This document shows, one piece after another, positions 2,927 to 42,396 of a stretch of 64,000 nucleotides of DNA. Both the position numbers and the translations under genes were made by a program. The DNA is from Thermoplasmata archaeon (lineage in GTDB: Archaea > Thermoplasmatota > Thermoplasmata > Lutacidiplasmatales > UBA184). The notes beneath the pieces were generated by a model, which was given only the letters and a program-made list of their open reading frames with translations, was not told the origin of the DNA and searched no databases. Each line of letters opens with the position of its first letter. Within the stretch, counting starts at the first letter, position 1. The DNA is taken from assembly GCA_022750055.1 (NCBI GenBank), contig JAKIWL010000001.1, forward strand, positions 248,001 to 312,000. Reading direction: 5' to 3'.

Positions 2927-2930
2927 CGCT

Positions 2931-3684: not shown

Positions 3685-3782
3685 GCCAGCCGATTCTCTC
3701 GAGGCGAAGCACGCTTAGTTCGCTCGGTGAAAGAGAACGCGAATCGGTAACGACGTCGAGATCGGTCGCCGCATAGCAACGG

Positions 3783-3789
3783 TATTATA
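3783..3789 (+). promoter_or_regulatory. TATA box for rpoK
   Basis: TATTATA in an otherwise GC-rich gap. A start of transcription about 26 nt downstream would fall near 3812, after the in-frame GTG at 3801 and before the ATG at 3828, which favours the ATG as the rpoK start. Confidence 0.6.
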
Positions 3790-3827
3790 GCGAACCTAGA
3801 GTGGCCGACCCCTTGACGGCCGCGACC

Positions 3828-4070: not shown

Positions 4071-4087
4071 CGGGCGCTGGCGACCGC

Positions 4088-5797: not shown

Positions 5798-5843
5798 CTC
5801 GACCCTCCGGGGCGGTCCCCGCGTCCCTGGCCGCAGGGCCCCA

Positions 5844-6491: not shown

Positions 6492-6520
6492 GCTCGCCTC
6501 CCACCCCCGAGCCCGCGGGC

Positions 6521-17273: not shown

Positions 17274-17379
17274 CCCGGCTTAGCTCAGTGGTAGAGCGGG
17301 GGACTGTAGTCGCGACCGCCGGACACCGGCGGCCCCCGTAGATATCCTCAGGTCGCCTGTTCGAGTCAGGCAGCCGGGA
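17274..17379 (+). tRNA. tRNA-Tyr (anticodon GTA) with intron
   Basis: Acceptor stem CCCGGCT/AGCCGGG with the archaeal tRNA-Tyr C1-G72 pair and discriminator A at 17379. D-stem GCTC/GAGC, anticodon stem GGGGA/TCCTC, anticodon GTA at 17306-17308, T-arm GCCTG-TTCGAGT-CAGGC. A 34-nt intron at 17310-17343 sits at the canonical 37/38 position and can fold into a bulge-helix-bulge. CCA is not encoded. Confidence 0.95.
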
Positions 17380-24197: not shown

Positions 24198-25046
24198 TCA
24201 GGTGACGATCACCTGGACCGGGATCTCGGTCGCGATGCCGAAGTTGTCGACGGCCGTGATGAAGATATAGTAGGTTCCGGCGCTCTGGGTGTTCGGGACC
24301 GTATAGCTATAGCTCCAGATCCCCGAGGAGAAGGTCAGGGCGTGGAACAGTTTCGTGCCCTTGTTGATCTCGGTCAGGTTCACGTTCACCTTGGCGGGGG
24401 ATTGGCCGACCGTGAGTCCGTCCGGGGTGACGAGGGTACACGAGATGAGGAGGCTCGAACCATGGACCACCGGCATCGGCGCGACCGATTCCGTGGTGAA
24501 GTACGGGGCGCTCACGGCATTGGGCCCGGGGACGACCGAATTGAGGACGAGTTGGCTCTGGGAGTCCACGACGACGGTGAGGTTGTCATAGAACGGGAGC
24601 CCGTAGGTCGTCAGGTTGAGCGACCAGGTCTGGCCGGGCGACCAGCTCGGGGAACCGGCCAGGCCGCTTCCCAGGCTGAACGGGCTCGTGAAGGCAGAGG
24701 GGACCTGCTGGGAGGCGAGACGTACGGACGATTGGCTGACGATCGCACCGACGACCCGAGGCCCGGCGAGCAGCTGGATGTTGATTCCGTTCATCGCTGG
24801 GGCCCGGACCGCGCCGCCGTGACCGCAATTGAGCACGCAGACGGTCCCGCCGTAGGTAAGATTCACCGCGAACACGTCGGTCCGATTCGCGGTCTGGACC
24901 GGATAGGTGTCGACCCACAGGGTCACGATCCCGGCGAGGACGACCGCGATCGCGAGGATGATGATGGTGCCGATGACATCCTGGACGGCGCGCGAGCGAG
25001 CCTGCCGACGGCCCCTCGCCCGGATCATCCTTCGGCCACGGCTCAT
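24198..25046 (-). CDS. Archaeal pilin-like protein (family A, copy 1)
   Basis: 282 residues. The N-terminus is a class III signal: basic RARGRRQARSRA, then VQDVIGTIIILAIAVVLAGIV, cleaved by an archaeal prepilin peptidase so the hydrophobic helix forms the pilus core. A beta-rich globular domain follows (PFSLGSGLAGSPSW, NLTTYGLPFYDNLTV), then an Ig-like C-terminal domain ending GTYYIFITAVDNFG. The same plan occurs in the proteins at 27972 and 28952, so the three are paralogues. It lies on the opposite strand from the machinery genes but in the same locus. Several NxT sequons are present. Confidence 0.78.
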   Translation of the reverse strand: MSRGRRMIRARGRRQARSRAVQDVIGTIIILAIAVVLAGIVTLWVDTYPVQTANRTDVFAVNLTYGGTVCVLNCGHGGAVRAPAMNGINIQLLAGPRVVGAIVSQSSVRLASQQVPSAFTSPFSLGSGLAGSPSWSPGQTWSLNLTTYGLPFYDNLTVVVDSQSQLVLNSVVPGPNAVSAPYFTTESVAPMPVVHGSSLLISCTLVTPDGLTVGQSPAKVNVNLTEINKGTKLFHALTFSSGIWSYSYTVPNTQSAGTYYIFITAVDNFGIATEIPVQVIVT

Positions 25047-25182: not shown

Positions 25183-25914
25183 CTACTGCCGGCTCAGCCC
25201 GTACAGGGAGAAGCTCATGACGAGGTCGTTCGTGGAGCCGCTCGAATAGGTCACCGACACGCTGCACGCGCCCTGAACGGTGAAGCACCAAAGCGGGGCG
25301 CCGTGGTAGTCATCGTCGGGGCAGTTGCCGTTGTAGTCGCAGAACGCCGTGGCCGGGTGGGCGAAGATGACGATCACGTCCCCCTGGGCGATCCCCGGCA
25401 CCCCGGGCGTGAACTGCTGGTAGTACAGCAGCCGGTTGAAGAACGTGCCCGTGAACCCGCCCCCTCCGGACCCCCAGACCCAGGTGCCGCAGTTCCCGAT
25501 GGTCGGTGAGCCCACCGGGGGCGATGCACCGGAGCCCGGAATGACCTCGAGGCTCTGCAGGTTGGCGTTGATCAAGTCGGTCCCGTTACAGACGAAGATC
25601 AGGTTCAGGTTGGAAAGCTTCAGGAACGACGGGGAATACCCGTTGATCAGGACGAACATGGCCGGCAGGGAATTGCAGTGGGCGTACTGGGTCGTATTCG
25701 TGCAATCCGTTGGATCGCTCCACGCCTGTTCGGAGAGTCCTCCCTTGACCAGATAGGCGATGGAAGGGGGAGGCTGGTTCAAGGACGGCCGGAAGGTGGC
25801 GAGCACAACGACCGCGATGATCGTGATCGCTAGCAGGAGGATCGTCGCAATGATCCCGGACACCCCGGAGCGAGTTTGAGAGCGAGAAAGACGGCGCCAA
25901 CGAGAGATCGTCAT
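25183..25914 (-). CDS. Archaeal pilin-like protein (distinct)
   Basis: About 243 residues from ATG 25914. After a basic leader (RWRRLSRSQTRSG) comes VSGIIATILLLAITIIAVVVLA, a class III signal and pilin core helix. The globular part has five or more cysteines (e.g. CTNTTQYAHC, CDYNGNC, CFTVQGAC), unlike the other pilins here, suggesting disulfide bonds. It shares no obvious C-terminal Ig domain with family A. A TATA-like GTTTAAGG at 25947-25954 lies upstream. Possibly a minor or tip pilin. Confidence 0.7.
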   Translation of the reverse strand: MTISRWRRLSRSQTRSGVSGIIATILLLAITIIAVVVLATFRPSLNQPPPSIAYLVKGGLSEQAWSDPTDCTNTTQYAHCNSLPAMFVLINGYSPSFLKLSNLNLIFVCNGTDLINANLQSLEVIPGSGASPPVGSPTIGNCGTWVWGSGGGGFTGTFFNRLLYYQQFTPGVPGIAQGDVIVIFAHPATAFCDYNGNCPDDDYHGAPLWCFTVQGACSVSVTYSSGSTNDLVMSFSLYGLSRQ

Positions 25915-25954
25915 GAACAGCCGTCTGATAGACGCTCGGGACACCCCTTAAACA

Positions 25955-26260: not shown

Positions 26261-27841
26261 ATGAGGCGCATTGGTACGCATTCCGTCCGGACGATGCGCC
26301 GGCGGTTCCGGGCCGACCGCCGAGGGCAGGTCGCGGCCGTGGCGACTCTGTTCGGCTTGCTGATCGTGGTTTCCCTGATCGCCGAACTGGCCCTCGCGCC
26401 CCTGCCGACGGCCGAGCAGAACGCCGAGCTCCAGCACTTGCTTCTCGAGGAGAACCAGTTCGGCCAACTCCAGACCGACCTCCTGGTCGAGGTCGCTTCC
26501 CCTTCGGTGCACCAAGTCCTCACCGCCCCCGTGACCCTCGGCTCCAGCCCGATACCCCCATTCGGGCCCGCCGCGAGCAGCCAACTCTCCCTTTTGCCCT
26601 CGGGGGCGAGCACCCGCGTGACCGCGGAATCCGTCAAGCCGGGACCCGTATCGAACACGGGGGGCCTGTGCAATGGGGGCCTGGTCACCTCCGGGAACCG
26701 CACCACGTGCACGTTCACGGTGAACTCATGCACTTCGGCCGAGACCTGGAATGTGACGCTGAGCCACCAATCCTATTTCTTCGCTATCGCGGGGAGCTCC
26801 GGGGCGTGCCCGTATGTCAACGTTACCGGAGACTTCAACACTATCACCCTCAACATCACGGACAACAACATGGTCCCGGCGTTCAACTTCACACTGTACG
26901 GAAGCCACGACACGGTCGTAGTGAATTGGGAGGGCGGTTCGGGCTCCGTCCTGAAGTTCACACTCTACGGGTCGAACAACACCTACCGATACGGGTCGAA
27001 GTATAACGGGAAGGGTTCGGCCGTCGTGACCAAGTTCATCGGGGAACCCGAACCCCAGGTCGCCCCGGGGTGTCCGTACAAGAACCTCGCGTCGACGGAC
27101 AAGGTCGGACCGCTCCCGGTCAGCAGTTCGGGCAACGTCCAGAGCCTTTTCTTCTACAATTCCCTGGGGATAAATAACGGTCCCCATCTAGTCACTCCGG
27201 CCGGCGGTCCGGCGCTCACTTGGCAGAACATCAGCCAGGCCCCCTCGGCGACTCAATGCGCCTTTGGTGGGACCGGCCCGACGGGCGTCTTCGCACCGTT
27301 CCTCGTCGGGGCCGGTAGCCTGAGCGCGGGACTCCAGAACCACTACCTGGGAACCGAGACGCTCTCGCTCGAGGGCGGGGCGGTCCTCGTCGGACAGGCT
27401 AGCGGCTCGACCCTCATCGACCCCCCGTCGTTCAACTTCACCTCGAATGCGACCGCCAATTCTGCCGAATTCACGCTCATCAACTTCGTGGAATCGACGT
27501 CGCGGACCGCCAGCGGATACTCTACCGCGGCGATCGTCACCCAGCTCGTCTCGGAAACCAGCTTCCAGGCGACCTTTCCCATCTCGATCGGAGGCGGCAC
27601 GGTCTTCGTCGACCCCACCCTCAACGTCACGACGGCCTACCCGGCCGCCTGGGTGAGCTATTTCCAGAGCCTGGCCCCCACCTTCCTGAATGGGACCATC
27701 GGCTGCTCGTCGGCCGCCTCGATTGCCTCCCCCGCGACCTGCCTGAACCCCCCGATCGGCCAGTACGTCTCGCTGTCGATCCCCCTCAACATCCAGTTTC
27801 TCGAGGTCACGGTCGCGGTGATCCAGATCTCGGTCGAGTAG
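26261..27841 (+). CDS. Large pilin-like surface protein (family B, copy 1)
   Basis: 526 residues. A basic leader (RRRFRADRRG) precedes QVAAVATLFGLLIVVSLIAELAL, a class III-type membrane helix. Residues ~170-260 contain short repeats (GDFNTITLNITDNN, FTLYGSHDTVVVN, FTLYGSNNTYRYG) like a small parallel beta-helix. The C-terminal half (ETLSLEGGAVLVGQASG, then PPSFNF) matches the region ENDAIIQSQGNG of the 29950 protein, so the two are paralogues with different middles. Probably a minor pilin or pilus-associated adhesin. Numerous Asn glycosylation sequons. Confidence 0.65.
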   Translation: MRRIGTHSVRTMRRRFRADRRGQVAAVATLFGLLIVVSLIAELALAPLPTAEQNAELQHLLLEENQFGQLQTDLLVEVASPSVHQVLTAPVTLGSSPIPPFGPAASSQLSLLPSGASTRVTAESVKPGPVSNTGGLCNGGLVTSGNRTTCTFTVNSCTSAETWNVTLSHQSYFFAIAGSSGACPYVNVTGDFNTITLNITDNNMVPAFNFTLYGSHDTVVVNWEGGSGSVLKFTLYGSNNTYRYGSKYNGKGSAVVTKFIGEPEPQVAPGCPYKNLASTDKVGPLPVSSSGNVQSLFFYNSLGINNGPHLVTPAGGPALTWQNISQAPSATQCAFGGTGPTGVFAPFLVGAGSLSAGLQNHYLGTETLSLEGGAVLVGQASGSTLIDPPSFNFTSNATANSAEFTLINFVESTSRTASGYSTAAIVTQLVSETSFQATFPISIGGGTVFVDPTLNVTTAYPAAWVSYFQSLAPTFLNGTIGCSSAASIASPATCLNPPIGQYVSLSIPLNIQFLEVTVAVIQISVE

Positions 27842-27971: not shown

Positions 27972-28784
27972 ATGGATACGCGCGCGCGGCATCGATGCTC
28001 GATCGACGGCCCCCTATTCCACTGCCACGGAGCTCGGCGGAGGCCTCGGGGTGTATCCTCCATCGTCGCCACCATGCTCCTCCTGGCGATCACCGTCATC
28101 CTGTTCTCGGCGATCTTCATCTTCATCGGGCGGATCCCCAAGCCCGGCCCTCAGCCGCTCGACCAGTTCGACGCGTCCTTGAGCTACAGCGGCACCACGG
28201 TCAGCCGGATATCCATCCTACACCTCTCGGGATCCACCCTGAGCGGCCCCACGACCTCCCAGGCGGGGGTGTACATCGTCTCCCAGAAGCACCCCGTGGC
28301 GATCCCGAACCCCTTTACCCTCGCCGCCGGGCTGTCGGGATCTACGGTCTGGACCTTCGGACAGACATGGACGATCAACATGACGAGCTACGCGATCACC
28401 GCCTCTGACAACCTGACCGTCTCGGTCATCTCGGCGGGGCAGCTGCAGTTCCGGTCCACCTTGGCGGTCTCGGTCGCGACCTTCGCCCCCTACTTCGGCC
28501 CGATCGTGGTCACGCCGACCGGGGTGATCCCGGCGGCGCATGCGTACACGGTGAACGCATCGGCCTACTTCGCCACCCTGTCCGGCGACAGTGTGAAGAT
28601 CAACACGACGGAATTCCCGGGGGGGGCCGTGACCACCATGGCCGGATCTGGGGGAAGCGGTTACTATACTTTCTCCGGGACGACTCCAAGCCCGGCCTCC
28701 CAGACCAGCTACTATCTTTTCCTGACCGCCACCGACGGCAACAACCTGCGCACCGTGCTCGCGATAATCGTCACCGTAGCCTGA
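27972..28784 (+). CDS. Archaeal pilin-like protein (family A, copy 2)
   Basis: 270 residues. Basic leader ending RRRPRG, then VSSIVATMLLLAITVILFSAIFIF as prepilin helix. The globular domain includes TSQAGVYIVSQKHPVAIP and AAGLSGSTVWTFGQTW, nearly the same as in the next gene, and a C-terminal Ig-like domain ends TSYYLFLTATDGNN. Tandem duplication with 28952 is plain. Predicted pilus subunit exported and processed at the membrane. Confidence 0.8.
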   Translation: MDTRARHRCSIDGPLFHCHGARRRPRGVSSIVATMLLLAITVILFSAIFIFIGRIPKPGPQPLDQFDASLSYSGTTVSRISILHLSGSTLSGPTTSQAGVYIVSQKHPVAIPNPFTLAAGLSGSTVWTFGQTWTINMTSYAITASDNLTVSVISAGQLQFRSTLAVSVATFAPYFGPIVVTPTGVIPAAHAYTVNASAYFATLSGDSVKINTTEFPGGAVTTMAGSGGSGYYTFSGTTPSPASQTSYYLFLTATDGNNLRTVLAIIVTVA

Positions 28785-28951: not shown

Positions 28952-29737
28952 GTGATCGCACGTCGTTCCCTTCGTCGCCGCCGACTCGGCCGGCGGGGCG
29001 TCTCCGAAACGGTCGCGACCATCCTCCTCCTAGGGATGACCATCACTCTGTTCTCCTCGATCTTCGTCTTCACCTCGAGGAACCCGACTGCCCAGCCTCA
29101 GGCCCTGAACGAATTCACCGCGGCGCTCTCGTACGGCGGGTCCGGCGGGCTCCAGGTCCTGACCGTCTCGATCACTCATCTGTCGGGGAACGTCATCACC
29201 GGGTCCGCGACCTCCCAGGCGGGGGTCTACGTGACCTCCCAAAGGCACCCGGTGGCGATCCCCAACCCGTTCTCGCTCGCGGCGGGCCTGTCCGGCTCGT
29301 CGACCTGGGGGTTCGCCCAGACCTGGAGCGTGAGCCTGTCCACGTATTCGATCACCTCGCCGGACAACCTCACCGTGTCGGTGATCTCCCATGACCAGCT
29401 CCAGTATCACACGGTCCTCTTCGCACTCGTCCCGTCCAACTACCCGTACTTCCTCAACGTGAAGATCACCCCTGTTTCCGTCGCCCCGAACGCCGCGTTC
29501 AACCTGTCGTCGATCGTTCAGTTCGCCTCCAGCCTCGGGGACAATGTGAAGGTGAACCTGACGGCCATCGGAGGCTCCGCGGTTCAGGCGATGAACGGCC
29601 CCGGGGGCGTCGGACTGTACTATTACGACGGGACGGCCCCGAATCCCGCCATGGCGAAGACCTACTATCTGGTCCTTACGGCGACGGACATGAACGGCCT
29701 CAAGACGAACTTTGCCGTGGCTCTGATGGTCACCTGA
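28952..29737 (+). CDS. Archaeal pilin-like protein (family A, copy 3)
   Basis: 261 residues, GTG start. Leader RRLGRRG, then VSETVATILLLGMTITLFSSIFVF. The globular part shares TSQAGVYVTSQRHPVAIP and AAGLSGSSTWGFAQTW with the preceding gene; a C-terminal Ig-like domain ends TYYLVLTATDMNGLK. It probably arose by tandem duplication of 27972-28784. The two may be alternative major pilins or form a mixed filament. Confidence 0.8.
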   Translation: MIARRSLRRRRLGRRGVSETVATILLLGMTITLFSSIFVFTSRNPTAQPQALNEFTAALSYGGSGGLQVLTVSITHLSGNVITGSATSQAGVYVTSQRHPVAIPNPFSLAAGLSGSSTWGFAQTWSVSLSTYSITSPDNLTVSVISHDQLQYHTVLFALVPSNYPYFLNVKITPVSVAPNAAFNLSSIVQFASSLGDNVKVNLTAIGGSAVQAMNGPGGVGLYYYDGTAPNPAMAKTYYLVLTATDMNGLKTNFAVALMVT

Positions 29738-29889: not shown

Positions 29890-29897
29890 TTTATATC
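29890..29897 (+). promoter_or_regulatory. TATA box for the pilus machinery operon
   Basis: TTTATATC, the best TATA box in this stretch, centred 56 nt before ATG 29950. It probably drives the five-gene run 29950-36284. Confidence 0.7.
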
Positions 29898-29949
29898 TGA
29901 AGCCAACTAGGATTACTATCCTGGTGGATTCCACCGGGGACGGCGTTCG

Positions 29950-30891
29950 ATGAGGGTTGCTTCAACAGGGCGGCGACGCCTCTGCTACCGCCGGGGTTTT
30001 CGACGCGATTCCCGAGGGGTGGTCTCGGTCGTCGGGACCCTGCTCGCCCTGCTCGTCTTCTTCGCCTTGTTCGGGGTCTTCTTGACCCAGTACGTCCCGC
30101 TCTGGATGAGCGAGAACGAACAGACCCTCACCACCCAGGTAGAAACGGCGCTCGCGAACCTCAAGGGGGGCATTGACGGGCAGGTCGCCTCCCAGGGTCC
30201 GGCGGTCATCGCGACGCCCTTCCCGATCAGCTCCCAGAGCATCCCCCTGATCGCCCAGCCGACCGCGGCGGCCATCACCTTCGTCCCCCCCAGTCCGGGC
30301 GGCGGGACCTACTCCAACGTGTCGATGAAGCCTGGTCCGGGGGGCTCTACCGGGGCCTTCTTCGAGAATCAGACGGTGGGAACGGTCCAGATCAAGATCC
30401 CCTCCCGGTACTATTCGCCAGAGACCTTCCTGCTCGAGAACGACGCGATCATCCAGTCCCAGGGGAACGGGCAACAGGTCGTCGAATTCCCCCCGACCCT
30501 ATCGGTAAACCAGACCGGATCGGGCTACGGAGTGACCGCCTCCCTGATCCAGGTCACGGGCATCTCAACGCAGGCCACCGGGGTCGGCACGCAGGAGATC
30601 TTCAGCCATTTCGTCTATAGCGACGCGTTCACGAGCACCAGCGCCGCTGGCACCCTAACGGCCAAGTTCATCGAGGCGACCTTCTACCCCTGCGCTTGGT
30701 CGTCCTTCGTCACGAGCACGTTCGCCCAGGCGCCCTCTGGGTTCAGTTCGCACTACACGATCACCGCTCCGGGCAGCTGCTCTGGCCCGCCCGCGACGTC
30801 CTACCCGTTCAAGGTGGCCTTTACCGGCCTCACCTCGTTCACCCTGATCTGGGCCGAGGTCCACCTCGTGATCGGCGTGGGGACGGAATAG
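29950..30891 (+). CDS. Pilin-like protein heading the pilus operon (family B, copy 2)
   Basis: 313 residues. Leader RRGFRRDSRG, then VVSVVGTLLALLVFFALFGVFL. The rest is beta-rich: YYSPETFLLENDAII and QGNGQQVVEFPPTLSV match the C-terminal half of the 26261 protein. The stop lies 8 nt before the first ATPase gene, so it is made together with the machinery, which suggests a core minor pilin or initiator. Two cysteines near the C-terminus could pair. Confidence 0.7.
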   Translation: MRVASTGRRRLCYRRGFRRDSRGVVSVVGTLLALLVFFALFGVFLTQYVPLWMSENEQTLTTQVETALANLKGGIDGQVASQGPAVIATPFPISSQSIPLIAQPTAAAITFVPPSPGGGTYSNVSMKPGPGGSTGAFFENQTVGTVQIKIPSRYYSPETFLLENDAIIQSQGNGQQVVEFPPTLSVNQTGSGYGVTASLIQVTGISTQATGVGTQEIFSHFVYSDAFTSTSAAGTLTAKFIEATFYPCAWSSFVTSTFAQAPSGFSSHYTITAPGSCSGPPATSYPFKVAFTGLTSFTLIWAEVHLVIGVGTE

Positions 30892-30898
30892 GGTACTC

Positions 30899-32548
30899 AT
30901 GAGCAGCTCCTCGTTCCGCGTCAAGATTCCCCGCGCCGGGGAGGCTCCCGAAACGGGCGGCCCGGCTCCGAGTCCTCCGGAGGGTTCGGACCTTCCTGGG
31001 ACGTTCATCACCGCGATGCCCCCACTGGGCGGTCCGGAGGTGAAGCAGATGCAGGTCACGGCGATCCAGCCTCCGTACTCCTACAGCCGGATCAGCTACA
31101 ACGAGGTCCGCAAGGAGCACCTATACGAGGTCATCGAACCCCAACTCTCCTCCCACGAGCGCGACCTGGTCGACCACATGAAGGCGACCCTGACCCAGAT
31201 CATGGGCCCGGAGGTCTCCAACATGACGACCAGCGACAAGCGCGCCTACCTGCGCGGCGAGGTCGAAGAGTACCTGAAGAGTCGGGAGATCACGATCGGG
31301 CCGCTCTCCGTCGAGCGCCTGATCTACTACATCCAACGCGATTTCGTCGGATACGGCCCGGTCGACGCACTCATCCTGGACCCTGAGGTCGAGGACATCT
31401 CCTGCGACGGGGTCGAGGTACCCCTCTTTGTCTTCCATGGGAAGTACGAGTCGATCAAGACGAACGTGATGTTCGACGACGAGGATACGTTGAACTCGTT
31501 CATCGTAGCGCTCGGACAGCGCTGCGGGAAGGCGGTCTCGGTCTCCGCGCCCATCTTGGATGGGACCACCCCCGAGGGTCACCGGGTCCAAGCGACGTAC
31601 GCCCGCGAGATCACGACGCGCGGGGCGAGCTTCACGATCCGGCGGTTCAAGGAACGCCCCTTCACGCCCGTCGACCTGATCACGACGGGGAGCGCGAGCG
31701 AAGAGATGATCGCCTACCTTTGGCTCGCCGCCGAGCAGGGCGAGTCGCTGATCATCTGCGGCGGCCCCGCCTCCGGGAAGACGAGCACGCTCAACGCGGT
31801 CGCCCTCTTCATCCCCCCGACCTCCAAGATCGTTTCGATCGAGGACACTCGGGAGGTGAACCTGCCTCACGAGAACTGGATCCCGGGCGCGACCCGCAGC
31901 GGGACAGGGGACCGCGGCCCGGACGGCAAGGCGGCCGGGGAGGTCGACATGTTCGACCTCGTACGCGCGGCCCTTCGACAGCGACCGAACTACATCATCG
32001 TCGGGGAGGTCCGCGGCAAGGAGACCTACACCATGTTCCAGGCGATGGCGACGGGCCACACCACCTACTCGACCATGCACGCCGACAGCGTGAAGTCGAT
32101 GGTGAACCGCCTGGAGAATCCGCCCATCAACACCCCGCGAATCCTGCTCTCCGCGTTGAACAACGTCATCATCCAGATCCAAGCCCGGACGGAGAAGGGA
32201 GTCGTTCGGAGGCTCAAGCAGGTGCTCGAGATCGTCGGGTTCGAGCCCGAGACGAACGAGCTCATCACCAACACCGTCTACGAATGGGACCCGGGCACGG
32301 ACAAGTTCGTCTTCAAGGGCCATTCGTTCCTGTTTGACAAGATCATGGAACTGAAGAACCTGACCCACGACGAGATGGACGCGGAGTTCGAGCGCCGCGT
32401 CTCCGTCCTTCACTCCCTCGCGTTGAATCGGATCAACGATTACCGGGCCCTGTGGAAGGCGGTCACCGCCTACTACAAGGATCCGGCCGGGGTCGCCGCG
32501 ATGATGAAGGCGAAACTGCCCGAGCCGGCCCCGACGGAGGCCGTCTGA
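30899..32548 (+). CDS. Type II/IV secretion ATPase, ArlI/TadA type (first copy)
   Basis: 549-residue hexameric ATPase that powers pilin insertion at the membrane. An N-terminal domain (EHLYEVIEPQLSSHERDLVDHM; GYGPVDALILDPEVEDISCDG) leads to Walker A GGPASGKTS near residue 287, the Asp box SIEDTREVNLPHENW, Walker B YIIVGEVRG and His box TTYSTMHADS. All catalytic elements are intact. The first ~50 residues are Pro-rich. It is 2 nt upstream of a platform protein gene. A second, related ATPase ends the operon, which is unusual. Confidence 0.9.
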   Translation: MSSSSFRVKIPRAGEAPETGGPAPSPPEGSDLPGTFITAMPPLGGPEVKQMQVTAIQPPYSYSRISYNEVRKEHLYEVIEPQLSSHERDLVDHMKATLTQIMGPEVSNMTTSDKRAYLRGEVEEYLKSREITIGPLSVERLIYYIQRDFVGYGPVDALILDPEVEDISCDGVEVPLFVFHGKYESIKTNVMFDDEDTLNSFIVALGQRCGKAVSVSAPILDGTTPEGHRVQATYAREITTRGASFTIRRFKERPFTPVDLITTGSASEEMIAYLWLAAEQGESLIICGGPASGKTSTLNAVALFIPPTSKIVSIEDTREVNLPHENWIPGATRSGTGDRGPDGKAAGEVDMFDLVRAALRQRPNYIIVGEVRGKETYTMFQAMATGHTTYSTMHADSVKSMVNRLENPPINTPRILLSALNNVIIQIQARTEKGVVRRLKQVLEIVGFEPETNELITNTVYEWDPGTDKFVFKGHSFLFDKIMELKNLTHDEMDAEFERRVSVLHSLALNRINDYRALWKAVTAYYKDPAGVAAMMKAKLPEPAPTEAV

Positions 32549-32550
32549 CC

Positions 32551-33519
32551 ATGGCGATCACCACCGCCTCCCGGGGGAAGCCCCTCCCGTCGGACGACAA
32601 CGCCACGCTCGTTCGCGTGAAGCGCGGCTCCCAACCCAGCTTCTCCACGCTTTCTCCCTTCCAACGGTGGGCCTGGAGGACGTTCCGGGCGCGAGTCCTG
32701 CGACGGCCACCGAGTCCGTCCCTCGACGAGTCGCTCGCCCGGGCGCACCTGCGGATGCGGGGGGACGAGTACCTCGCTCAGGTCTACGGCATGACGCTCA
32801 TCATCGGCCTCGTTCTCGCGGTCCTCGGCGGGGTCCTCTTCACGATCCTGTTCCTGTCGGGCCAGACGATCCTCGGCCTGGCCCTCGGGGTCCTCGTGCC
32901 GGTCGCCATCACGCCGCTCCTCTTCCTCCTCCTGCAGGGCCAGCCGGCTTCGACCGCCAAATCGCGGGGCCGCAAGATCGATGCGAAGATCTCCTCGGCG
33001 ATGAGCTTCGTCTCGGCGATGGCCTCGGCCGACGTCAACATCGATCAGATCTTCCGCGAGCTCGCCCGCCAGAAGATCTACGGTCAGGTCGCCGAGGAAG
33101 CAGCCTGGATCACGCGCGACACCGAGCTCCTGGGCGTCGACATCCTCACGGCCCTGAAGGACGGGGCGACCCGAACCCCTTCCAAGCGCTGGCAGGAGTT
33201 CCTGCAGGGCGTCGTCACGACCGCGACGAGCGGGGGGCAGCTCAAGCCGTACTTCCTGCTCAAGGCCGAGCAGTTCGAGCAGGAGCACAAGCTCGAGATG
33301 CTGCGACGGGTCGAGACGATGGGTCTGTTCGCCGAGACGTTCGTCACGGTCGTCGTCGCCTTCCCGCTCTTCCTGGTCATCATCATCGCGATCTTCGCGA
33401 TCATCGGCAGCGGGGGGAGCTTCATGATCCTCGTCCTCTACCTGATCGTGGGCATCATGATCCCCGTCTCCCAAGTCGGCTTCATCATCCCGATGCAATC
33501 GTTGGCCTCGGAGGTCTAG
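32551..33519 (+). CDS. Pilus platform protein, single T2SSF domain (first)
   Basis: 322 residues from ATG 32551. Two hydrophobic hairpins, near residues 78-130 and 265-315, flank a helical T2SSF domain (RKIDAKISSAMSFVSAMASADVNIDQIF ... RWQEFLQGVVTTATSGG). This is the TadC/ArlJ membrane platform on which the ATPase acts. Usual archaeal ArlJ proteins fuse two such domains; here each is a separate gene. It directly abuts the second platform gene (TAG then ATG). Confidence 0.85.
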   Translation: MAITTASRGKPLPSDDNATLVRVKRGSQPSFSTLSPFQRWAWRTFRARVLRRPPSPSLDESLARAHLRMRGDEYLAQVYGMTLIIGLVLAVLGGVLFTILFLSGQTILGLALGVLVPVAITPLLFLLLQGQPASTAKSRGRKIDAKISSAMSFVSAMASADVNIDQIFRELARQKIYGQVAEEAAWITRDTELLGVDILTALKDGATRTPSKRWQEFLQGVVTTATSGGQLKPYFLLKAEQFEQEHKLEMLRRVETMGLFAETFVTVVVAFPLFLVIIIAIFAIIGSGGSFMILVLYLIVGIMIPVSQVGFIIPMQSLASEV

Positions 33520-34497
33520 ATGGCGGGCGCGAACGCGACGGCGGGTCAGGTCGCCCAGAAGGTGAGCGGGGCCGGCGTCTTTCAGATCCACGAGGAGAAG
33601 GAGCACCTTCGCAAGGAGCTCCTCATTCTCCTCCTCGGAGTGGTCCTCGCGATGGCCCTCTGGGTCGTCGCGGTCCTCAACCTCACCGGCACGCTCAGCA
33701 CCCCGCTCGCGCCTGGGGAGGTGACCGGGGAGAATCCGGCGATCGACTTTTTCGTCCTGGGCGCCATCCTGGTCCTCGGACCGTTCGGCTTCGCCGAGAC
33801 GGCGCGCATCCGCCGGATCGACAAGATCGAGGAGCGCTTGCCGGACTTCCTGCGCGACGTGGCCGAGGCCGGACGGTTCGGCATGACGCTGCCCGATGCG
33901 ATCATCGTCGCCTCGAAGGGACGCTACGGCCTGCTCACCGACGAGATCAAGCGGATGGCGAGCCAGCTCGAATGGGGGGTCCCGGTCGCGACCGCGCTCC
34001 GCCTGTTCGAGGAGCGCGTCCCGACCCCGCTGGTCCAGCGCGTAGTCTCGATCATCACGCGCTCCAACGACGCCGGCGGGAACGTGGCGGACGTGCTCAC
34101 GATGGTGGCGCACGACACCCGGGAGGTCCAGAACCAGCTCGCGGCGCGGAAGATCTCGATGCTCACCTACGTCACGGTCATTTACATCTCGTTCTTCGTC
34201 TTCCTCGTCACGATCTACATCATGGCGGCGGTCTTTCTGCCCCAGATGGTCCTCGCCGGGCAGGGGATCGCCTCGAGCAGCCTGTCGAGCGGGGGCGCTG
34301 TGACGCTTTCGTTCACCCTCGTCCCGGCGCTGTTCGTGGCCTTCCTCGTGGCGGTCATCGTACACGCGATCGGCGACGGGATCATGGCCGGAGTCCTGTT
34401 CTCCGGAAAGTTTCCCGAAGGGTTCCAGCACGCGACGATCATGCTGATCGCCGGCTGGGTCATCATGCGGTTCGTGGTGCCGCCCATCACGGCGTAG
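33520..34497 (+). CDS. Pilus platform protein, single T2SSF domain (second)
   Basis: 325 residues. Hydrophobic segments near residues 33-55 and 65-85 are followed by the T2SSF domain (ERLPDFLRDVAEAGRFGMTLPDAI; VVSIITRSNDAGGNVADVLTMVAHD) and four further membrane segments. It corresponds to the second half of a two-domain ArlJ, so it should pair with the 32551 product in the membrane. It starts with no gap after the first platform gene and is 11 nt before the second ATPase. Confidence 0.85.
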   Translation: MAGANATAGQVAQKVSGAGVFQIHEEKEHLRKELLILLLGVVLAMALWVVAVLNLTGTLSTPLAPGEVTGENPAIDFFVLGAILVLGPFGFAETARIRRIDKIEERLPDFLRDVAEAGRFGMTLPDAIIVASKGRYGLLTDEIKRMASQLEWGVPVATALRLFEERVPTPLVQRVVSIITRSNDAGGNVADVLTMVAHDTREVQNQLAARKISMLTYVTVIYISFFVFLVTIYIMAAVFLPQMVLAGQGIASSSLSSGGAVTLSFTLVPALFVAFLVAVIVHAIGDGIMAGVLFSGKFPEGFQHATIMLIAGWVIMRFVVPPITA

Positions 34498-34508
34498 GGG
34501 TACAGACG

Positions 34509-36284
34509 ATGGCGAGCGCAGCGAGGAGGACCCAGACCGACGACGACGACCCGATTCCGAGCCGGAGCCAGCGACCGAGGACGTTCTTCTCCCCCCTCGT
34601 GCGGATCGGCGCACGCCTCTCCCGCGGCTCGACCGGTCCGCGTGCGGTGAAGCTCGCCCGGCTGGGGGTTTCGGGGCAAGGGGCCGAAGGGACGCCGACC
34701 CCGATCCCCGAACTCGACGACCCGCTCCTCAAGGAGGTCGAGCTCGCCCCGATCCGCGAGGGGCTATCGTACATCCGGGTGACCTACCACACCGGGAAGA
34801 ACGAGTACCTCTACGAGGTCATCGAACCGCTGATGTCCCCGATCGAGAAGACCCTCCTCGAGCGGCTCCGGGTCACGCTCATCGACCATTTCCAGCCCCT
34901 GCCGGAGCTCGACGCCGAGACCAAGCGGCGGGAGCTGCGCAAGATGGTCGACGACCAGCTCCAGGGATGGGAGCTTTCCCCGAGCCCGGTCACGAAGGGG
35001 CGTCTATTGTACTACCTCGAACGGGAGTTCATCGGCTACGGGATCGTCGAGGTCCCGATGAACGATAGCGAGGTCGAGGACATCTCCTGCGACGGGGTCG
35101 GGATCCCGCTCTACATCTACCACCGCAAGTTCGGCTCGATCCGCTCGAATATCAAGTTCACCGATTCGAAGGAGGTAGACGACTACGTCGTCTGGATCGC
35201 CCAGCGCTCGGGGAAGCACATCTCGGTCGCGAGCCCGATGCTCGACGCGACGATGCCCGACGGCTCGCGTCTGCAGGCGACCCTCGGCATGCACGTGACG
35301 AAGCGCGGGAGCTCGTTCACCATCCGGCGGTTCCGGGACAACCCGTTCACCCCGGTCGACCTGCTGAAGTTCAAGACGATGAGCCCCGAGATGATGGCGT
35401 ACATGTGGATCGCCATCGAGACCGGCCAGTCGATGATGGTCTGCGGGGGGACGGCGAGCGGGAAGACGACGACCCTCAACGCGACCCTGTTGTTCATCCC
35501 GAGCCAGATGAAGATCGTCTCGATCGAGGACACCCGGGAGTTGAACCTCCCGCACGAGAACTGGGTCCCGTCCCTGACCAGGGCCGGGTTCGGCGCGAAA
35601 AACGTCGTCAGCGGCAAGGCGCCCGGGGAGATAGACATGTTCGACCTGCTCGCCGCGGCGCTGCGGCAACGCCCTCAGTACCTGATGGTCGGAGAGGTCC
35701 GGGGTGCCGAGGCGTTCATCGTCTTCCAGGCGATGGCGACGGGAAAGACGTGCTATACGACCTTTCACGCCGAAAGCGTCTCCGCGATGGTCCACCGGAT
35801 GGAGAACCCGCCGATCTCTCTTCCACGGTCTCTCGTCAGCGCGCTCAACCTCGTGCTCCTCCAGCGCCAGGTCAAGGTCGGGACCAAGATGACGCGCCGG
35901 GTCCAGAGCCTGACGGAGATCGTCGGACTCGACCCGGAGACGAACGAGCTCATCACGAACTCCGTCTACTCCTGGGACCCCGGCGACGACGCGTTCCTCT
36001 ACTCGGGCCACTCCTACATCTACGAGCGGGTCGCGCTCATGAAGAACTGGACGATGAAGGAGATGGAGCGGGAGGTCCGAAACCGCGTCGAGATGCTCGA
36101 GTACATGAAGTGGCGCGAGGCGGGAGCGACCCGCCAACGCCCCTTCACGCACCGCGATGTCGGCCGGATCGTCGCCTTCTACTACAAGGACCCGAAGGAG
36201 GCCCTCGCCGAGGCGCGCGCTGAGATGGCGAGCAAGCCCCCGAGGGCGACCCCCGGCGCGACGCCGGCCGCCGGCACCGCGTAG
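34509..36284 (+). CDS. Type II/IV secretion ATPase, ArlI/TadA type (second copy)
   Basis: 591 residues from ATG 34509. It parallels the first copy: NEYLYEVIEPLMSPIEKTLLERL, GYGIVEVPMNDSEVEDISCDG, Walker A GGTASGKTTT near residue 313, Asp box SIEDTRELNLPHENW, Walker B YLMVGEVRG, His box TCYTTFHAES. Both ATPases look active, so one may drive extension and the other retraction or a second filament. The frame is open far upstream through the platform genes, but that part is a GC-driven artefact. The C-terminal 15 residues are Pro/Ala-rich. Confidence 0.9.
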   Translation: MASAARRTQTDDDDPIPSRSQRPRTFFSPLVRIGARLSRGSTGPRAVKLARLGVSGQGAEGTPTPIPELDDPLLKEVELAPIREGLSYIRVTYHTGKNEYLYEVIEPLMSPIEKTLLERLRVTLIDHFQPLPELDAETKRRELRKMVDDQLQGWELSPSPVTKGRLLYYLEREFIGYGIVEVPMNDSEVEDISCDGVGIPLYIYHRKFGSIRSNIKFTDSKEVDDYVVWIAQRSGKHISVASPMLDATMPDGSRLQATLGMHVTKRGSSFTIRRFRDNPFTPVDLLKFKTMSPEMMAYMWIAIETGQSMMVCGGTASGKTTTLNATLLFIPSQMKIVSIEDTRELNLPHENWVPSLTRAGFGAKNVVSGKAPGEIDMFDLLAAALRQRPQYLMVGEVRGAEAFIVFQAMATGKTCYTTFHAESVSAMVHRMENPPISLPRSLVSALNLVLLQRQVKVGTKMTRRVQSLTEIVGLDPETNELITNSVYSWDPGDDAFLYSGHSYIYERVALMKNWTMKEMEREVRNRVEMLEYMKWREAGATRQRPFTHRDVGRIVAFYYKDPKEALAEARAEMASKPPRATPGATPAAGTA

Positions 36285-36303
36285 GGCGGGGTGGCGCTCG
36301 AGC

Positions 36304-37299
36304 GTGAGCGCCTTGCCCACGACGCATCCGTTCGCTCGGTTCACCGGCCCCCAAGGTGCCCCGACGACGCTCTGCCGGGCGGACGCGTTGCGCTCGATGC
36401 CGCGGGACCTGGCCGCTGGCTCGGCCGACGTGGTCGTCACCTCCCCTCCGTACAACCTCGACGCGGCCTACGGCGAGTACGACGACGCCCGACCCTCCCA
36501 GGAATACCTCCGATGGATAGGGCGCGTCGGCCGGTGCGTGGCGCGGGTCCTCGCTGAGTCAGGGTCTTTCTTTGTCAACCTCGGCGGCCCACCGAGCGAC
36601 CCGGGTTGGCCCTGGGAGGTCGCGCGGGCGGCGGGTCGGCCCTTCGTCCTCCAGAACGTGATCCACTGGGTGAAGTCGATCGCCATCGAGAAGGCGTCGA
36701 CCGGTCGCACTTCCGGCCTCGACCGCGACATCGCGGTCGGCCACTACAAGCCGGTGAACTCGCACCGTTACCTCAACTCCGCCCACGAGTACATCTTCCA
36801 CTTCACCCACCGAGGCGACGTCGAGCTCGAGCGGCTCGCGATCGGTGTCCCGTACCAGGACCGGTCGAACGCGACCCGATGGGGGGCCGGTCGCTCGGGC
36901 CTTCGGTGCCGTGGGAACACCTGGTTCCTCCCGTACCCGACGATCCAGCACCGGTCGAGCGACCGGCCCCATCCGACGGCCTTTCCCCCCGAGCTCCCTG
37001 AACGCTGCCTTCGCCTCCACGGCGTCGGCCGTATCCGACTCGCCGTGGACCCGTTCGTCGGCATCGGGGGCTCGGCCATCGCCGCCCTCAGGGTCGGGGT
37101 CCCCTTCGTCGGATACGACATCGACGCGACCTACCTGACCGAAACGGCCCGCCTTCTCGAGCGGGCGGGTGCGGTTCGAACGGGGGAGACTCCCGATTTG
37201 GCTGCCCCCGTGGATCGAGGCGCCCCGCGGGCCCGCGAACGGATGGGGAACCGGGGGCGTCGGGTCGAGGGTAGGCCGACTCCCGGTCTAGCCGCCTAG
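36304..37299 (+). CDS. Site-specific DNA methyltransferase (N4-C/N6-A, beta class), orphan
   Basis: 331 residues from GTG 36304. The catalytic motif TSPPYNLD is at residues 46-53 and the SAM-binding motif DPFVGIGGSAIAAL near 250-263. This order (IV first, I last) marks the beta class of amino-methyltransferases acting on adenine N6 or cytosine N4. Between them is the target-recognition region with HRYLNSAHEYIFHFT. No restriction endonuclease is adjacent, so it may be a solitary epigenetic enzyme. It sits 20 nt after the pilus operon on the same strand, possibly co-transcribed. The last 40 residues are unconserved. Confidence 0.85.
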   Translation: MSALPTTHPFARFTGPQGAPTTLCRADALRSMPRDLAAGSADVVVTSPPYNLDAAYGEYDDARPSQEYLRWIGRVGRCVARVLAESGSFFVNLGGPPSDPGWPWEVARAAGRPFVLQNVIHWVKSIAIEKASTGRTSGLDRDIAVGHYKPVNSHRYLNSAHEYIFHFTHRGDVELERLAIGVPYQDRSNATRWGAGRSGLRCRGNTWFLPYPTIQHRSSDRPHPTAFPPELPERCLRLHGVGRIRLAVDPFVGIGGSAIAALRVGVPFVGYDIDATYLTETARLLERAGAVRTGETPDLAAPVDRGAPRARERMGNRGRRVEGRPTPGLAA

Positions 37300-38044: not shown

Positions 38045-39925
38045 CTACCCACCCATCCTGCGGTCCGATTTGCGCCGTTTCCCTTTGGAGGCTGCGGTCG
38101 ACGGGCGACGCGCCGGGACAGCCTCGGCTTCGACCGGCCGTTTCACGGTCTCGGTACCGCCCGCCCATCGGATCAGAAGCTCGACGCCGAGCCGCTCGGG
38201 GTCGGTGACCGCGAGGGATCCTCCGACCGTTCTAGTGATCTCTCGGGCGGCCGCCTCGTATTCAGGGTGTTCGGACCGAAGCAGGATCATCGTGAACTTG
38301 AGCGGGGTCACTGTCGCGAGCTCCCGAGCCCGTTCGAGGGCCCGGGCCATGGCGACGTCGAGCTGGCCGGAGCGGACTCGCCCATCCCGATCGGTGTACG
38401 ACTCCGGTAGGCCGTCGGTCACGAGGTAGACCTCCCGCCGGCTCGCGCGGGAGGAGGCAAGCAACAGGTGCGCCGTGTGCAACGCCTCCGCGGTGTTCGT
38501 GAACGAGCCCGGCGTGCACTCCCAGAGTTCGAGCAGATCGAGGACTCGAACCTCGTTGTCGAACGCCACGACATCGATCGTGGCCTGGGGATTCCGCTTG
38601 CGGATCGCGACGTACAGGGCGAGGAGCGCCTTCTTCGCCGCTGGCAGCTTCTCCGACTCGGACATGCTGCCGGACTTGTCGAAGACGAGGACGACGTGGA
38701 CCCGTTCGCTCGTGATCTCCCGGTAGACGTAGCTTGTGGACTCATCGATGTGGCGGGACCCTTCCAAGCGCGCGGCGAGCAGCGAGCCGGGTAGGTCGAG
38801 GTGGGCGATCTCCTCGGACCGGCGCAACCGGGCCTTCTCGTACACACCCGTCGAGGCGCTCCCTGAGAGAGAGAGCCGTACATCGGCCGGGAGCTGCCGC
38901 GTCTCCTCCTCGAGGACCAATCGAGCGAACCGCTCGATGAGCCCGTAGGTCACCTGGATCTCTCCTTGCCGCTCGGCGACGAACCCGCGCTCCTTGAGTT
39001 CCCGTGCGAGGCGCTTCTCCTCCGTATCGCGGACCCGCCGGTCCGCGTCGTGCTCGGCCCGACGCTCGGCCTCCTTTCGTTCGGCCTCGAGCGCACGACG
39101 CTGCGCCTCGGCCTCCTTGCGCTTCTCCTCGGCGGAACGCGCGAGGTCGCGTTCTCGGGCCTTGTACGACCGGTCGACGGAGCTCGCGAGCTCCTCGCGC
39201 TCCCGACTATTCAGTTGGGCGATCGCGTCTCCGATCTCCGAACGTCCGATGGTCCGTCCGCTGCCCGAGAGCGCGGCAAAGACGATCGTCCGGTCCTTCC
39301 GCACCGGCTCCGTCGAGCGCTTCCTTCGACCGAAGAGACCCCGGAGCCAGGCGACGAGGCGCCGGAACAGGGCCCGGAGTCGGTCGAGGAACCCGGGGGA
39401 GGAGGGCGGATGCATCCAGGGCTGGTCGGGGAGCAGGAGCGCCGACCGAACCTCCTCGAAGAGCCCGGCATCGAAGTTCGACAGGTCGAGTGATCGGGCC
39501 CGTTGTCGTCGGGCCTCCATGGCCGCCAGCTCTGCCGCGATCTCGGCCGCAGAGCGCCGGCCCACCGTTTCCAGCTCCACGATCCGGCGGTCGTACTCGC
39601 TCATCGTGCGGGCCACGTTGCGCTCGGCCTGGCGTCGGACCCGCTCGCGCATTTCGGCGATCCGCTGCGCCAGCGCCGGGTCGGACGCGGCCCGGGCATC
39701 GAGGATCGCGCGCGCGGCCTCGAAGCCCCCTTCGGCGAGGGCGCGGATGACCTCCTTCGAATCGAGGAGGTCGAACAGGTCGTCGGAGGTGACGTCCTCC
39801 GGAAATTTCGTGCAGTCCGGAAGCTCGATCGCGTCGCTAGAGGGGGGCGTCGTCGTCCGCTTCCTCCGGGGAGCAGGAGAACACAGAGTATTTGTCCAGA
39901 AGGCCGAACTCGGCGGCGGCGGCAT
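38045..39925 (-). CDS. VWA-domain protein with coiled coil (MoxR partner)
   Basis: Up to 626 residues. A C-terminal von Willebrand A domain carries the MIDAS motif DKSGSMSES near residue 415 and a later DGLPES. It is preceded by a long charged coiled coil (residues ~250-320, EEKRKEAEAQRRALEAERK). A hydrophobic patch with basic residues (LRALFRRLVAWLRGLFGRRKR) lies near 185. It follows a MoxR-like AAA gene, the classic chaperone pair. The start is unclear: the only ordinary start before the conserved region (ATG 39925) overlaps the AAA gene by 89 nt. Confidence 0.8.
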   Translation of the reverse strand: MPPPPSSAFWTNTLCSPAPRRKRTTTPPSSDAIELPDCTKFPEDVTSDDLFDLLDSKEVIRALAEGGFEAARAILDARAASDPALAQRIAEMRERVRRQAERNVARTMSEYDRRIVELETVGRRSAAEIAAELAAMEARRQRARSLDLSNFDAGLFEEVRSALLLPDQPWMHPPSSPGFLDRLRALFRRLVAWLRGLFGRRKRSTEPVRKDRTIVFAALSGSGRTIGRSEIGDAIAQLNSREREELASSVDRSYKARERDLARSAEEKRKEAEAQRRALEAERKEAERRAEHDADRRVRDTEEKRLARELKERGFVAERQGEIQVTYGLIERFARLVLEEETRQLPADVRLSLSGSASTGVYEKARLRRSEEIAHLDLPGSLLAARLEGSRHIDESTSYVYREITSERVHVVLVFDKSGSMSESEKLPAAKKALLALYVAIRKRNPQATIDVVAFDNEVRVLDLLELWECTPGSFTNTAEALHTAHLLLASSRASRREVYLVTDGLPESYTDRDGRVRSGQLDVAMARALERARELATVTPLKFTMILLRSEHPEYEAAAREITRTVGGSLAVTDPERLGVELLIRWAGGTETVKRPVEAEAVPARRPSTAASKGKRRKSDRRMGG

Positions 39926-41411
39926 CGACCGCGTTCGCCGAATCGGGCAGCCGCTCCCGCTGCGAGACGTAGGCGAGGAACGGTCGGAACTTGGGGAAGA
40001 GCTCCGGGCTGGAAGGGAGCTGGGACCTCAACTGGGCGTCATTCAGGAGTCGGCGGCCCTCCCCGACCAGGGCCTTGCCCTCCCCCTCGTTCTCCTTGAG
40101 GATGCTGCGGAAGAATCGGCACCAGTAGACCCCCGAGCTCCGACGGAGCGCGGGTTCGGTATGCTGGGCGAGGAAGTTGATGACGCGTCGTTCGTTCTGC
40201 CGGAACGAATCCCCGCTCCGGGCGCGGATCCGACCCCGCATGGCATGCAGCAGTCCCGCCTTCAGGTCGTCGGGCGATGCGAACGGGCGCCCAGCGAGGG
40301 TCGCGATCGCGTTCGTGCGGTGGGCGACATCGATGAGCGTGCGGTTCGAACCGACCTCCCCGATGTCCGGGTTGTCATCGGAGACGCGAAGCCTCCACGC
40401 CTCGATGACCCGGACCCCCGAATCGATCAGGATCTCCGGGACCACGGCACTCGTCCAAGCGCCGGCCCCGAGGTCCACGATCTGGCGATTCGGGGCGTGT
40501 TGGGGATTGAAGCCTACGTGGAGGCTCGTCAGCCGGTCCGAGAGTGGGTCGTTGATGTTGTCGAGGTCGGAAAGGTTCGAGGTGCAGACCGCCACGAAGC
40601 TCGCCGGAAACGTCTCCCGGGATTTCGAGGGGGTTACGGTACCTTCCTGGAGTGCCTGCAGTAGGACATTCTGGGTGCCCAGGGGAAGCTTTCCGATCTC
40701 ATCGACCAGCAGCAGGCCACGGTTCGCCTGGAGCAGCTTGCCGGGTTCGAGGACGAGGGGACTCATCGGGTCCCCGATCTCCTCGAGCTTCCGGAGGTTG
40801 ATGTTACCGGTGAGGTGATCCGGGAAGACCTCGGAGCTTCCCTGCAACCGGGCAAAGCCAAACCCCTCCCGCATTCGGACGAACTCGGCCGGGACCTGGT
40901 TCGGGTCCGTTCGGTCCGGGGCCCACGCGGCGACCTCACCGTTCGGGGCGAACCGTCGTCGGCAGATCGGGCAGGGTGCGAAGCGTTCGGCCGCCTCCGG
41001 GTCGCACAGGCTCAGCGGGTGATCGAGGACCGGGCAACCCTGGACGACCCAATTGTCCTTCGGAAACAGGTCCCAGACCTCCTTGGCGAGGCTGGTCTTG
41101 CCAGCGCCGGAGGGTCCGAAGAACAGGAGATGCGCCCCGGCCACGAGCCCGGTCACGAGGTCGTCGTAGGTCGAGTCCGGGAGGATCGTCTTGGGGAAGA
41201 GAGAACGGACTGCGGCCTCCCGGCTCAGTCCGTCCTTGCGCGCGATCGCGATGCGCCCGAGCACCTCGGTGCGAAGCCGGTCCTGAGGGGATTCCACCCG
41301 AACCCCCGAGTCTTGGAGCTGTCGGGCGGTCGCCTTCGCACCAATGGACGGAACCTTCGAGCCCGTCGCCCCCGTCCCGGTCGCCACGGGCCGGCGACAA
41401 AGGGTCGCCAT
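39837..41411 (-). CDS. MoxR-like AAA+ ATPase with inserted zinc-finger-like motif
   Basis: 524 residues. Walker A GPSGAGKTS at 99-107, Walker B LLLVDEIGKL near 233, sensor-1 CTSNLSD, and the lid helices further on, as in MoxR/Mg-chelatase AAA+ proteins. Between Walker A and B lies an unusual insertion with C126, C136, C147 and C150 (CPICRRRF), which could bind zinc. A helical C-terminal domain of ~130 residues has no known match. Together with the VWA partner it probably remodels or inserts cofactors into a target complex that is not in the window. Confidence 0.82.
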   Translation of the reverse strand: MATLCRRPVATGTGATGSKVPSIGAKATARQLQDSGVRVESPQDRLRTEVLGRIAIARKDGLSREAAVRSLFPKTILPDSTYDDLVTGLVAGAHLLFFGPSGAGKTSLAKEVWDLFPKDNWVVQGCPVLDHPLSLCDPEAAERFAPCPICRRRFAPNGEVAAWAPDRTDPNQVPAEFVRMREGFGFARLQGSSEVFPDHLTGNINLRKLEEIGDPMSPLVLEPGKLLQANRGLLLVDEIGKLPLGTQNVLLQALQEGTVTPSKSRETFPASFVAVCTSNLSDLDNINDPLSDRLTSLHVGFNPQHAPNRQIVDLGAGAWTSAVVPEILIDSGVRVIEAWRLRVSDDNPDIGEVGSNRTLIDVAHRTNAIATLAGRPFASPDDLKAGLLHAMRGRIRARSGDSFRQNERRVINFLAQHTEPALRRSSGVYWCRFFRSILKENEGEGKALVGEGRRLLNDAQLRSQLPSSPELFPKFRPFLAYVSQRERLPDSANAVDAAAAEFGLLDKYSVFSCSPEEADDDAPL

Positions 41412-42292: not shown

Positions 42293-42396
42293 GTCGGGGT
42301 GGCTCAGCCCGGTAGAGTACGGGACTCATAGGAGATCGGCGGAGCGCCGATCTCGGAGAGATCCTGGGGCCGGGGGTTCAAATCCCCCCCCCGACA
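42293..42396 (+). tRNA. tRNA with CAT anticodon (elongator Met or Ile2) with intron
   Basis: Acceptor stem GTCGGGG/CCCCGAC, discriminator A at 42396. D-stem GCTC/GAGT, anticodon stem CGGGA/TCCTG, anticodon CAT at 42327-42329, T-arm GGGGG-TTCAAAT-CCCCC. A 30-nt intron at 42331-42360 sits at 37/38 and has a GATCGGC..GCCGATC stem. The anticodon stem lacks the three G-C pairs of initiators, so it is elongator Met or the Ile tRNA whose C34 is modified. CCA is not encoded. Confidence 0.93.

Follow-up and report, generated by a model that had tools for sequence, protein, structure and literature searches.

The closest described system is that of Cuniculiplasma divulgatum S5, in which the ATPases CSP5_0712 and CSP5_0715 flank the TadC-like proteins CSP5_0713-14 and a likeness to Aciduliprofundum has been remarked (Golyshina et al. 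2016, PMC5155288). A 2025 ISME J paper introduced the names CdiPE1, CdiPFa, CdiPFb and CdiPE2, demonstrated an extracellular pilus for C. divulgatum, found no twitching, considered the ATPase pair to be "unique" among operons of archaea and termed the function of the second ATPase "enigmatic" (PMC12448462). Aciduliprofundum boonei likewise has two ATPases in one type IV pilus locus (Makarova et al. 2016, PMC4858521). Here we analyze a 64,000-nucleotide stretch of a Thermoplasmata archaeon genome (G000:C1:248001-312000, hereafter the window; host genome 1.52 Mb, GC-rich) carrying a five-gene operon, P-E1-Fa-Fb-E2, that, judged by its genes, would encode the core components of a single archaeal type IV pilus machine, adhesive in type and of the CdiP kind. 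A first-pass annotation of the window had held that, in the archaeal systems known so far, a single ATPase is paired with a single fused ArlJ-type protein; the ATPase-TadC-TadC-ATPase arrangement was already published (PMC5155288, PMC12448462), as were the two ATPases of A. boonei (PMC4858521), and that statement has to be dropped.

All five genes lie on the plus strand, between 29950 and 36284. The operon is led by P, a pilin-like protein of 313 residues (29950..30891, +) recognized by its class III signal and predicted structure, and continues with E1, the first T2SSE-type pilus ATPase (549 residues; 30899..32548, +; PF00437, 115.5 bits), the platform proteins Fa (32551..33519, +; PF00482, 47.7 bits) and Fb (33520..34497, +; PF00482, 66.8 bits) with one T2SSF domain each, and E2, the second T2SSE-type ATPase, with a TFHAE-type His box (591 residues; 34509..36284, +; PF00437, 116 bits; the Pfam cut-off for PF00437 is 24.9 bits). 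Walker A, Asp box, Walker B and His box are complete in both ATPases, which are 48% identical to each other across 516 residues. Fa aligns to the N-terminal half of the fused ArlJ/FlaJ protein (ArlJ model positions 18-244 of 555) and Fb to its C-terminal half (positions 303-539 of 555). Pfam searches and motif inspection therefore confirm what the first-pass annotation had reported, namely, two T2SSE ATPases with intact motifs flanking two single-T2SSF proteins, and its reading of the locus as a type IV pilus machine in which both ATPases are genuine members of the secretion family holds on the basis of PF00437 and these motifs. The pilin-like lead gene is borne out as well by the class III N terminus of P. 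The operon is indeed tight, with the gaps P/E1, E1/Fa, Fa/Fb and Fb/E2 measuring 7, 2, 0 and 11 nt rather than the "2-11 nt" given earlier, and the start placed at 29890 lies about 60 nt upstream of P.

The pair proves to be nearly universal in the class. When E2 relatives were sought in 283 class genomes, 262 had a match at E ≤ 0.001, many of these being only distant T2SSE paralogues; a close E2 relative (about 55-90% identity) occurs in most families of the class. In the same search, close E2 relatives were missing from family f8 except in genus g37, and some genera of family f31, e.g., g73, gave no T2SSE match, so that the whole machine has apparently been lost in nearly all of f8 and in some f31 genera. 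Gene order was counted at 141 class loci (60 fetched from class genomes, 80 named loci and the window itself, the sets partly overlapping, with L142 = L039). The complete order E1-Fa-Fb-E2 on one strand is found at 128 of them, bearing out the synteny in relatives; the remaining 13 have partial sets, and those inspected run into contig ends. Because the same order recurs at 128/141 class loci, the arrangement is not a product of chance. At locus L071 (G218), for example, E1-Fa-Fb-E2 is also led by P, and the difference from the window operon is one of sequence alone, with E2 63% identical. Five loci of a single genus (L040-L044, in G001, G002, G013, G018 and G074) have copies only 44-56% identical to the window E2, versus about 80% in sister genomes, and these machines may be fast-evolving or replaced versions.

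Outside the class, most loci have a single ATPase together with Fa and Fb. We weighed whether a split platform is diagnostic of systems with two ATPases and rejected this, because Fa and Fb accompany a lone ATPase in most other classes of the phylum. Nor is such a platform unusual, as had been assumed: many euryarchaeal loci of clade 2 have two tadC-like genes (PMC4858521), and Epd/Tad platforms are split (PMC6668835). Two ATPases are also seen in family f36, with the order E-F-F-E, and in families f39 and f41, with the order E-E-F-F (L096; L108-L110). Because tandem ATPases occur in f39 and f41 too, two-motor pili probably arose more than once in the phylum.

The phylogeny indicates that E1 and E2 parted long ago. 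A careful IQ-TREE analysis covered 86 ATPases, with very divergent rows left out. In it, the E1s of the class form one clade (support 99/94) and the E2s another (100/100), and both are separate from the clade of ATPases associated with fused platforms (100/100). E1 and E2 are old clades within the secretion-ATPase family, and E2 does not fall outside it. We reject a recent duplication for the window pair, since its members are 48% identical and each sits in a class-wide clade; by these comparisons the duplication goes back at least as far as the class itself. The two ATPases of f41 are mutual sisters (100/98), as are those of f39 (97/96), which suggests that these tandem pairs stem from independent duplications. 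For the f36 pair support is 90/40, and descent from the class duplication is not rejected in approximately unbiased (AU) tests (P = 0.26 and 0.48). Monophyly of E1 plus E2 within the phylum, i.e., a duplication inside the class versus an earlier one, gave an AU P value of 0.19.

With respect to specialization, we compared the residues of 40 E1s and 40 E2s from the less divergent lineages, a column being considered conserved when at least 90% identical in both copies. There are 156 such columns, and 16 of them hold differing residues, 10 derived in E1 and 4 in E2; at a conservation of ≥93% with diverged rows included, no fixed E1/E2 differences were found. Six of the differing columns fall within 20 residues around the ATP-site loop (permutation P = 0.013, with segment sizes picked after looking). 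In this loop the window E1 has EGHR (codons 226-229; 31574..31585, +), by alignment, in place of the DGSR of E2, ArlI, AfGspE and CpaF. Pairwise alignment shows xGHR in 122/127 class E1s and GSR in 132/138 class E2s. PDGSR is shared by E2, the sampled single and ArlI-like ATPases (whose first residue varies slightly), AfGspE, FlaI and CpaF, and the change from PDGSR to xGHR appears to be confined to E1. Among 59 E1 and 58 E2 rows, the catalytic motifs are complete except for Asp-box Thr changes in three E1s.

A naturally dead E1 is found in genus g82, sampled by five genomes (G277-G281; loci L092 and L211-L214), which retains the operon order. In 5/5 of these genomes, E1 is without Walker A (GGTASGKT having become GPDSPMK and variants), the Walker B Glu, the Asp box and the His-box His, and the E2 of the same operons retains all four motifs. 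The ratio of nonsynonymous to synonymous substitution rates (dN/dS) of this E1 is nevertheless 0.05-0.09 where measurable, close to that of E2 (0.05-0.07) and of Fa and Fb (0.03-0.07); dS is saturated in most comparisons, that of L212 with L213 being the most reliable. The g82 E1 is thus kept under strong purifying selection. A recent duplication with one copy decaying does not describe the window pair, and in g82 it is the catalysis of E1 that has decayed, not the gene.

The residues lost and kept in g82 are complementary between the two copies. In bacterial CpaF, R347 hydrogen-bonds the ATP gamma-phosphate in the adjacent subunit, with superfamily-wide equivalents such as FlaI R326 and PilT R207, and D215 steadies this trans arginine (PMC12019362). 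CpaF R347 aligns with Arg386 of the window E2 (35664..35666, +; alignment to 9e24), which corresponds to Arg360 of E1 (31976..31978, +; from the E2-9e24 alignment and E1/E2 column equivalence), and in each protein the arginine lies 10 residues ahead of the Walker B Glu (CpaF E357, E2 Glu396). In g82, the trans arginine is kept in E1 (5/5, within RQRP) and lost from E2 (5/5). The cis residues D246 (equivalent to CpaF D215), E340, E396 and H420 show the opposite pattern, being kept in E2 and lost in E1. In a g82 mixed ring, the sole type of intact site would combine the E2 pocket with the E1 finger. Such a reciprocal loss is predicted by an obligate mixed ring and neither by two independent motors nor by simple decay.

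We therefore propose a mechanism in which Fa and Fb together would make one membrane platform and E1 and E2, as old specialized paralogues, would drive this same platform, either in a heteromeric ATPase ring that mixes the two or, at a minimum, in an obligate E1-E2 complex. E2 would be the principal ATP-hydrolyzing subunit, and E1 a modified partner that reaches into the E2 active site with its trans arginine finger and may also determine direction or force. We regard it as an even call that E1 and E2 act together on Fa/Fb, the likeliest form being a mixed motor whose chief hydrolase is E2. Somewhat more tentatively, and a little short of even, we suggest that the class-wide pair is a heteromeric motor with composite sites, each consisting of the E2 catalytic pocket and the E1 trans arginine, an asymmetry that would have become hard-wired in g82. 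Physical contact between E1 and E2 is what we infer from these residue patterns, and the g82 arrangement would have to carry over to the window pair, whose two members each have a full catalytic set. Heteromeric motors have been proposed for type IV filaments in general, with the question of heterohexamers open in the field (PMC6711533), and a precedent for reliance on a catalytically dead partner exists in bacteria, where PilU drives retraction only when PilT is present, whether or not PilT can hydrolyze ATP (PMC6821130). A mixed E1-E2 ring, if true, would account for the "enigmatic" second ATPase in CdiP pili. To our knowledge, it would also be the first type IV filament motor shown as an obligate mixed ring. 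The comparative data, namely, an old pair nearly always kept together, an ATP-site signature in E1 and a natural pseudo-ATPase whose reciprocal arginine loss predicts a mixed motor, make the puzzle of the second ATPase testable.

Several points weigh against such a motor. Both ATPases are complete in the main lineage, so that each could still form homohexamers, and PilT and PilU do form separate homohexamers, which means that dependence of one motor on another need not imply a mixed ring (PMC6821130). The case for reciprocal retention over all invariant residues is weak and shifts with the cut-off: it reaches a one-sided Fisher P value of 0.013 at 98% invariance, a threshold picked after seeing the data, and the same test gives 0.14 at 95% and 0.14-0.21 at 90%. 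Furthermore, 4/5 g82 E2s have an Arg one position downstream that could partly compensate for the lost one (L214 has none there), and the five g82 genomes represent one genus and one evolutionary event.

The first-pass annotation had favored either a dynamic pilus with separate extension and retraction motors or two filaments sharing a platform. Two homohexameric motors alternating on one platform in the manner of PilB and PilT would account for the completeness of both ATPases in nearly all lineages and for the retention of two anciently diverged copies side by side, and a bacterial ATPase duplication did produce PilB/PilT (PMC6668835, PMC6711533), which leaves the idea some general standing. 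However, it fits poorly with g82, where a stand-alone motor does not explain a dead E1 under purifying selection or the reciprocal arginine loss, and C. divulgatum, whose pair is the same, was not observed to twitch (PMC12448462). A single archaeal ATPase does both jobs in Aap, and CpaF does likewise in Tad. Neither copy is PilT-like in any case, the best models being ArlI, BasE and TadA, with PilT far lower: E1 and E2 reach only 46.6 and 39.7 bits against TIGR01420 (pilT_fam; cut-off 319), outside the range of the PilT/PilU family. Taken together, we consider separate extension and retraction motors unlikely. As to two filaments sharing a platform, we found no positive evidence for them.

Dependence of one motor on the other could also take a form akin to PilT/PilU, with stacked or side-by-side homohexamers working in the same direction, one binding the platform and the other adding force. 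That PilU works with catalytically inactive PilT (PMC6821130) is a close match to a dead E1 with an active E2, but this arrangement does not predict that the dead E1 should keep, and the active E2 lose, exactly the trans arginine, and it seems to us rather improbable. The account of Makarova et al. (PMC4858521) and the several pilins encoded upstream would, in turn, suit interchangeable motors, with E1 and E2 serving different pilin sets or conditions on one platform through modular ATPase/TadC exchange. We give this very little credence, since at each complete locus of the class a single operon holds both ATPases and a single Fa/Fb pair, and no second pilin set is tied to E2.

P, the lead protein, is probably a dedicated component of the machine, either a minor pilin or a pseudopilin. 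Its N terminus is a class III (prepilin-type) signal, RDSRG followed directly by VVSVVGTLLALLVFFALFG, and AlphaFold2 predicts with good confidence (pLDDT, the predicted local distance difference test score, 86.5) a helix at residues 21-81 and then a beta-rich head. P has no Pfam match at E ≤ 0.01, and a fold search of the PDB with the predicted structure gave no match at E ≤ 0.001. In most families of the class, the gene immediately before E1 encodes a P homologue; in families f30 and f31, on the Cuniculiplasma side, none was found directly upstream of E1. The filament itself is probably built from the products of adjoining Pilin_N genes, the nearest of which are the candidate filament subunits at 28952..29737 (+; PF07790, 31.4 bits) and 27972..28784 (+; PF07790, 44.6 bits), both assigned to the machine by position. 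A large pilin-like or surface protein with a weak DUF7289 match (26261..27841, +; PF23960, 21 bits, below the cut-off) has homologues at 56 loci, and its position suggests that it may belong as well. On the minus strand, a further candidate filament subunit with a Pilin_N domain is encoded at 25183..25944 (PF07790, 26.4 bits; TIGR02537, 25.9 bits) and a pilin-like protein at 24198..25046, the latter scoring below the cut-off for PF07790 (21.7 versus 25.2 bits) and above that for TIGR02537 (23.7 versus 20 bits).

Directly downstream of E2 lies an N6/N4 DNA methylase (36157-37299, +; PF01555, 109 bits) with homologues at 44 loci; its listed ATG overlaps E2, and the real start is probably near 36304. 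A vWA-domain protein and a MoxR/PrkA-like AAA ATPase adjoin the pilus operon (38045-41411, minus strand), and the pair is kept there in close relatives; vWA/MoxR pairs have been proposed as type IV pilus regulators (Makarova et al., PMC4858521). The genome also contains a second pilus module, E-Fa-Fb, at about 233.5 kb of G000:C1, ~13-15 kb before the window start (L114, positions 4973-6757, 4020-5042 and 2611-4287). Its ATPase, the third of the T2SSE type, is distant from E1 and E2, groups with those of family f38 of the phylum (L127) and of L116, and was possibly acquired horizontally. Elsewhere in the window, two tRNAs of more than 100 bases (17274-17379 and 42293-42396, both +) are detected by the Rfam model and missed by ARAGORN, and they probably contain introns.

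An archaellum was considered and rejected, since the platform is split, E1 and E2 score 414.7 and 401.3 bits versus an ArlI equivalog cut-off of 550, and their clades are separate in the tree. The first-pass annotation, which had noted no ArlB/F/G/H genes (here ArlF, ArlG and ArlH were not searched one by one), had come to the same view, and we find in addition that AfGspE outscores FlaI. Of the solved structures, AfGspE of Archaeoglobus (2OAP) is the best match to E1 and E2 with 391-405 bits (405 to E1), versus 278-288 bits for FlaI; it belongs to the same ATPase family and has the PDGSR loop. The single-ATPase E-Fa-Fb pili of other classes in the phylum also share the ATPase family and the split platform, and differ in having one ATPase, with a PDGSR loop. 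Bacterial Tad (TadA/CpaF, TadB, TadC) and archaeal Epd resemble the window operon in their two single-T2SSF proteins and a VirB11/TadA-like fold with a trans arginine (PMC6668835, PMC12019362), but use one bifunctional ATPase where the window operon has two. Profile scores are higher for ArlI (414.7 bits) and BasE (201.5) than for TadA (148.2), and 2OAP scores above CpaF. PilT and PilU are paralogous motors, as are E1 and E2, and PilU needs PilT, a dead PilT still permitting PilU to work (PMC6821130); they differ in belonging to the bacterial PilT family, in forming separate homohexamers and in working beside an extra extension ATPase, PilB.

A. boonei shares with the window two distinct ATPases in one locus (PMC4858521), and the likeness to CdiP extends to the whole order ATPase-platform-platform-ATPase, which the window operon, coding for a predicted pilus, has in common with the C. 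divulgatum locus L084 (G245). Each window ATPase is an ortholog of the Cuniculiplasma copy in its position. The upstream Cuniculiplasma ATPase (L084_6489) falls in the E1 clade of the class (support 100, quick tree); the downstream copy has a long branch and is not resolved in the quick tree, and L088 and L091 of the same family fall in the E2 clade (100/100, careful tree). The two systems differ in that the window operon is led by P, whereas in the sampled Cuniculiplasma family no P homologue was found upstream of E1 and the pilins are encoded elsewhere (PMC12448462), and the window E2 shares about 38-42% identity with the two Cuniculiplasma ATPases. The architecture is already known from Cuniculiplasma and Aciduliprofundum, and the window operon adds a member; the novelty lies in how old and how nearly universal the pair is, in the signature of E1 and in evidence pointing to an active site shared by the two ATPases.

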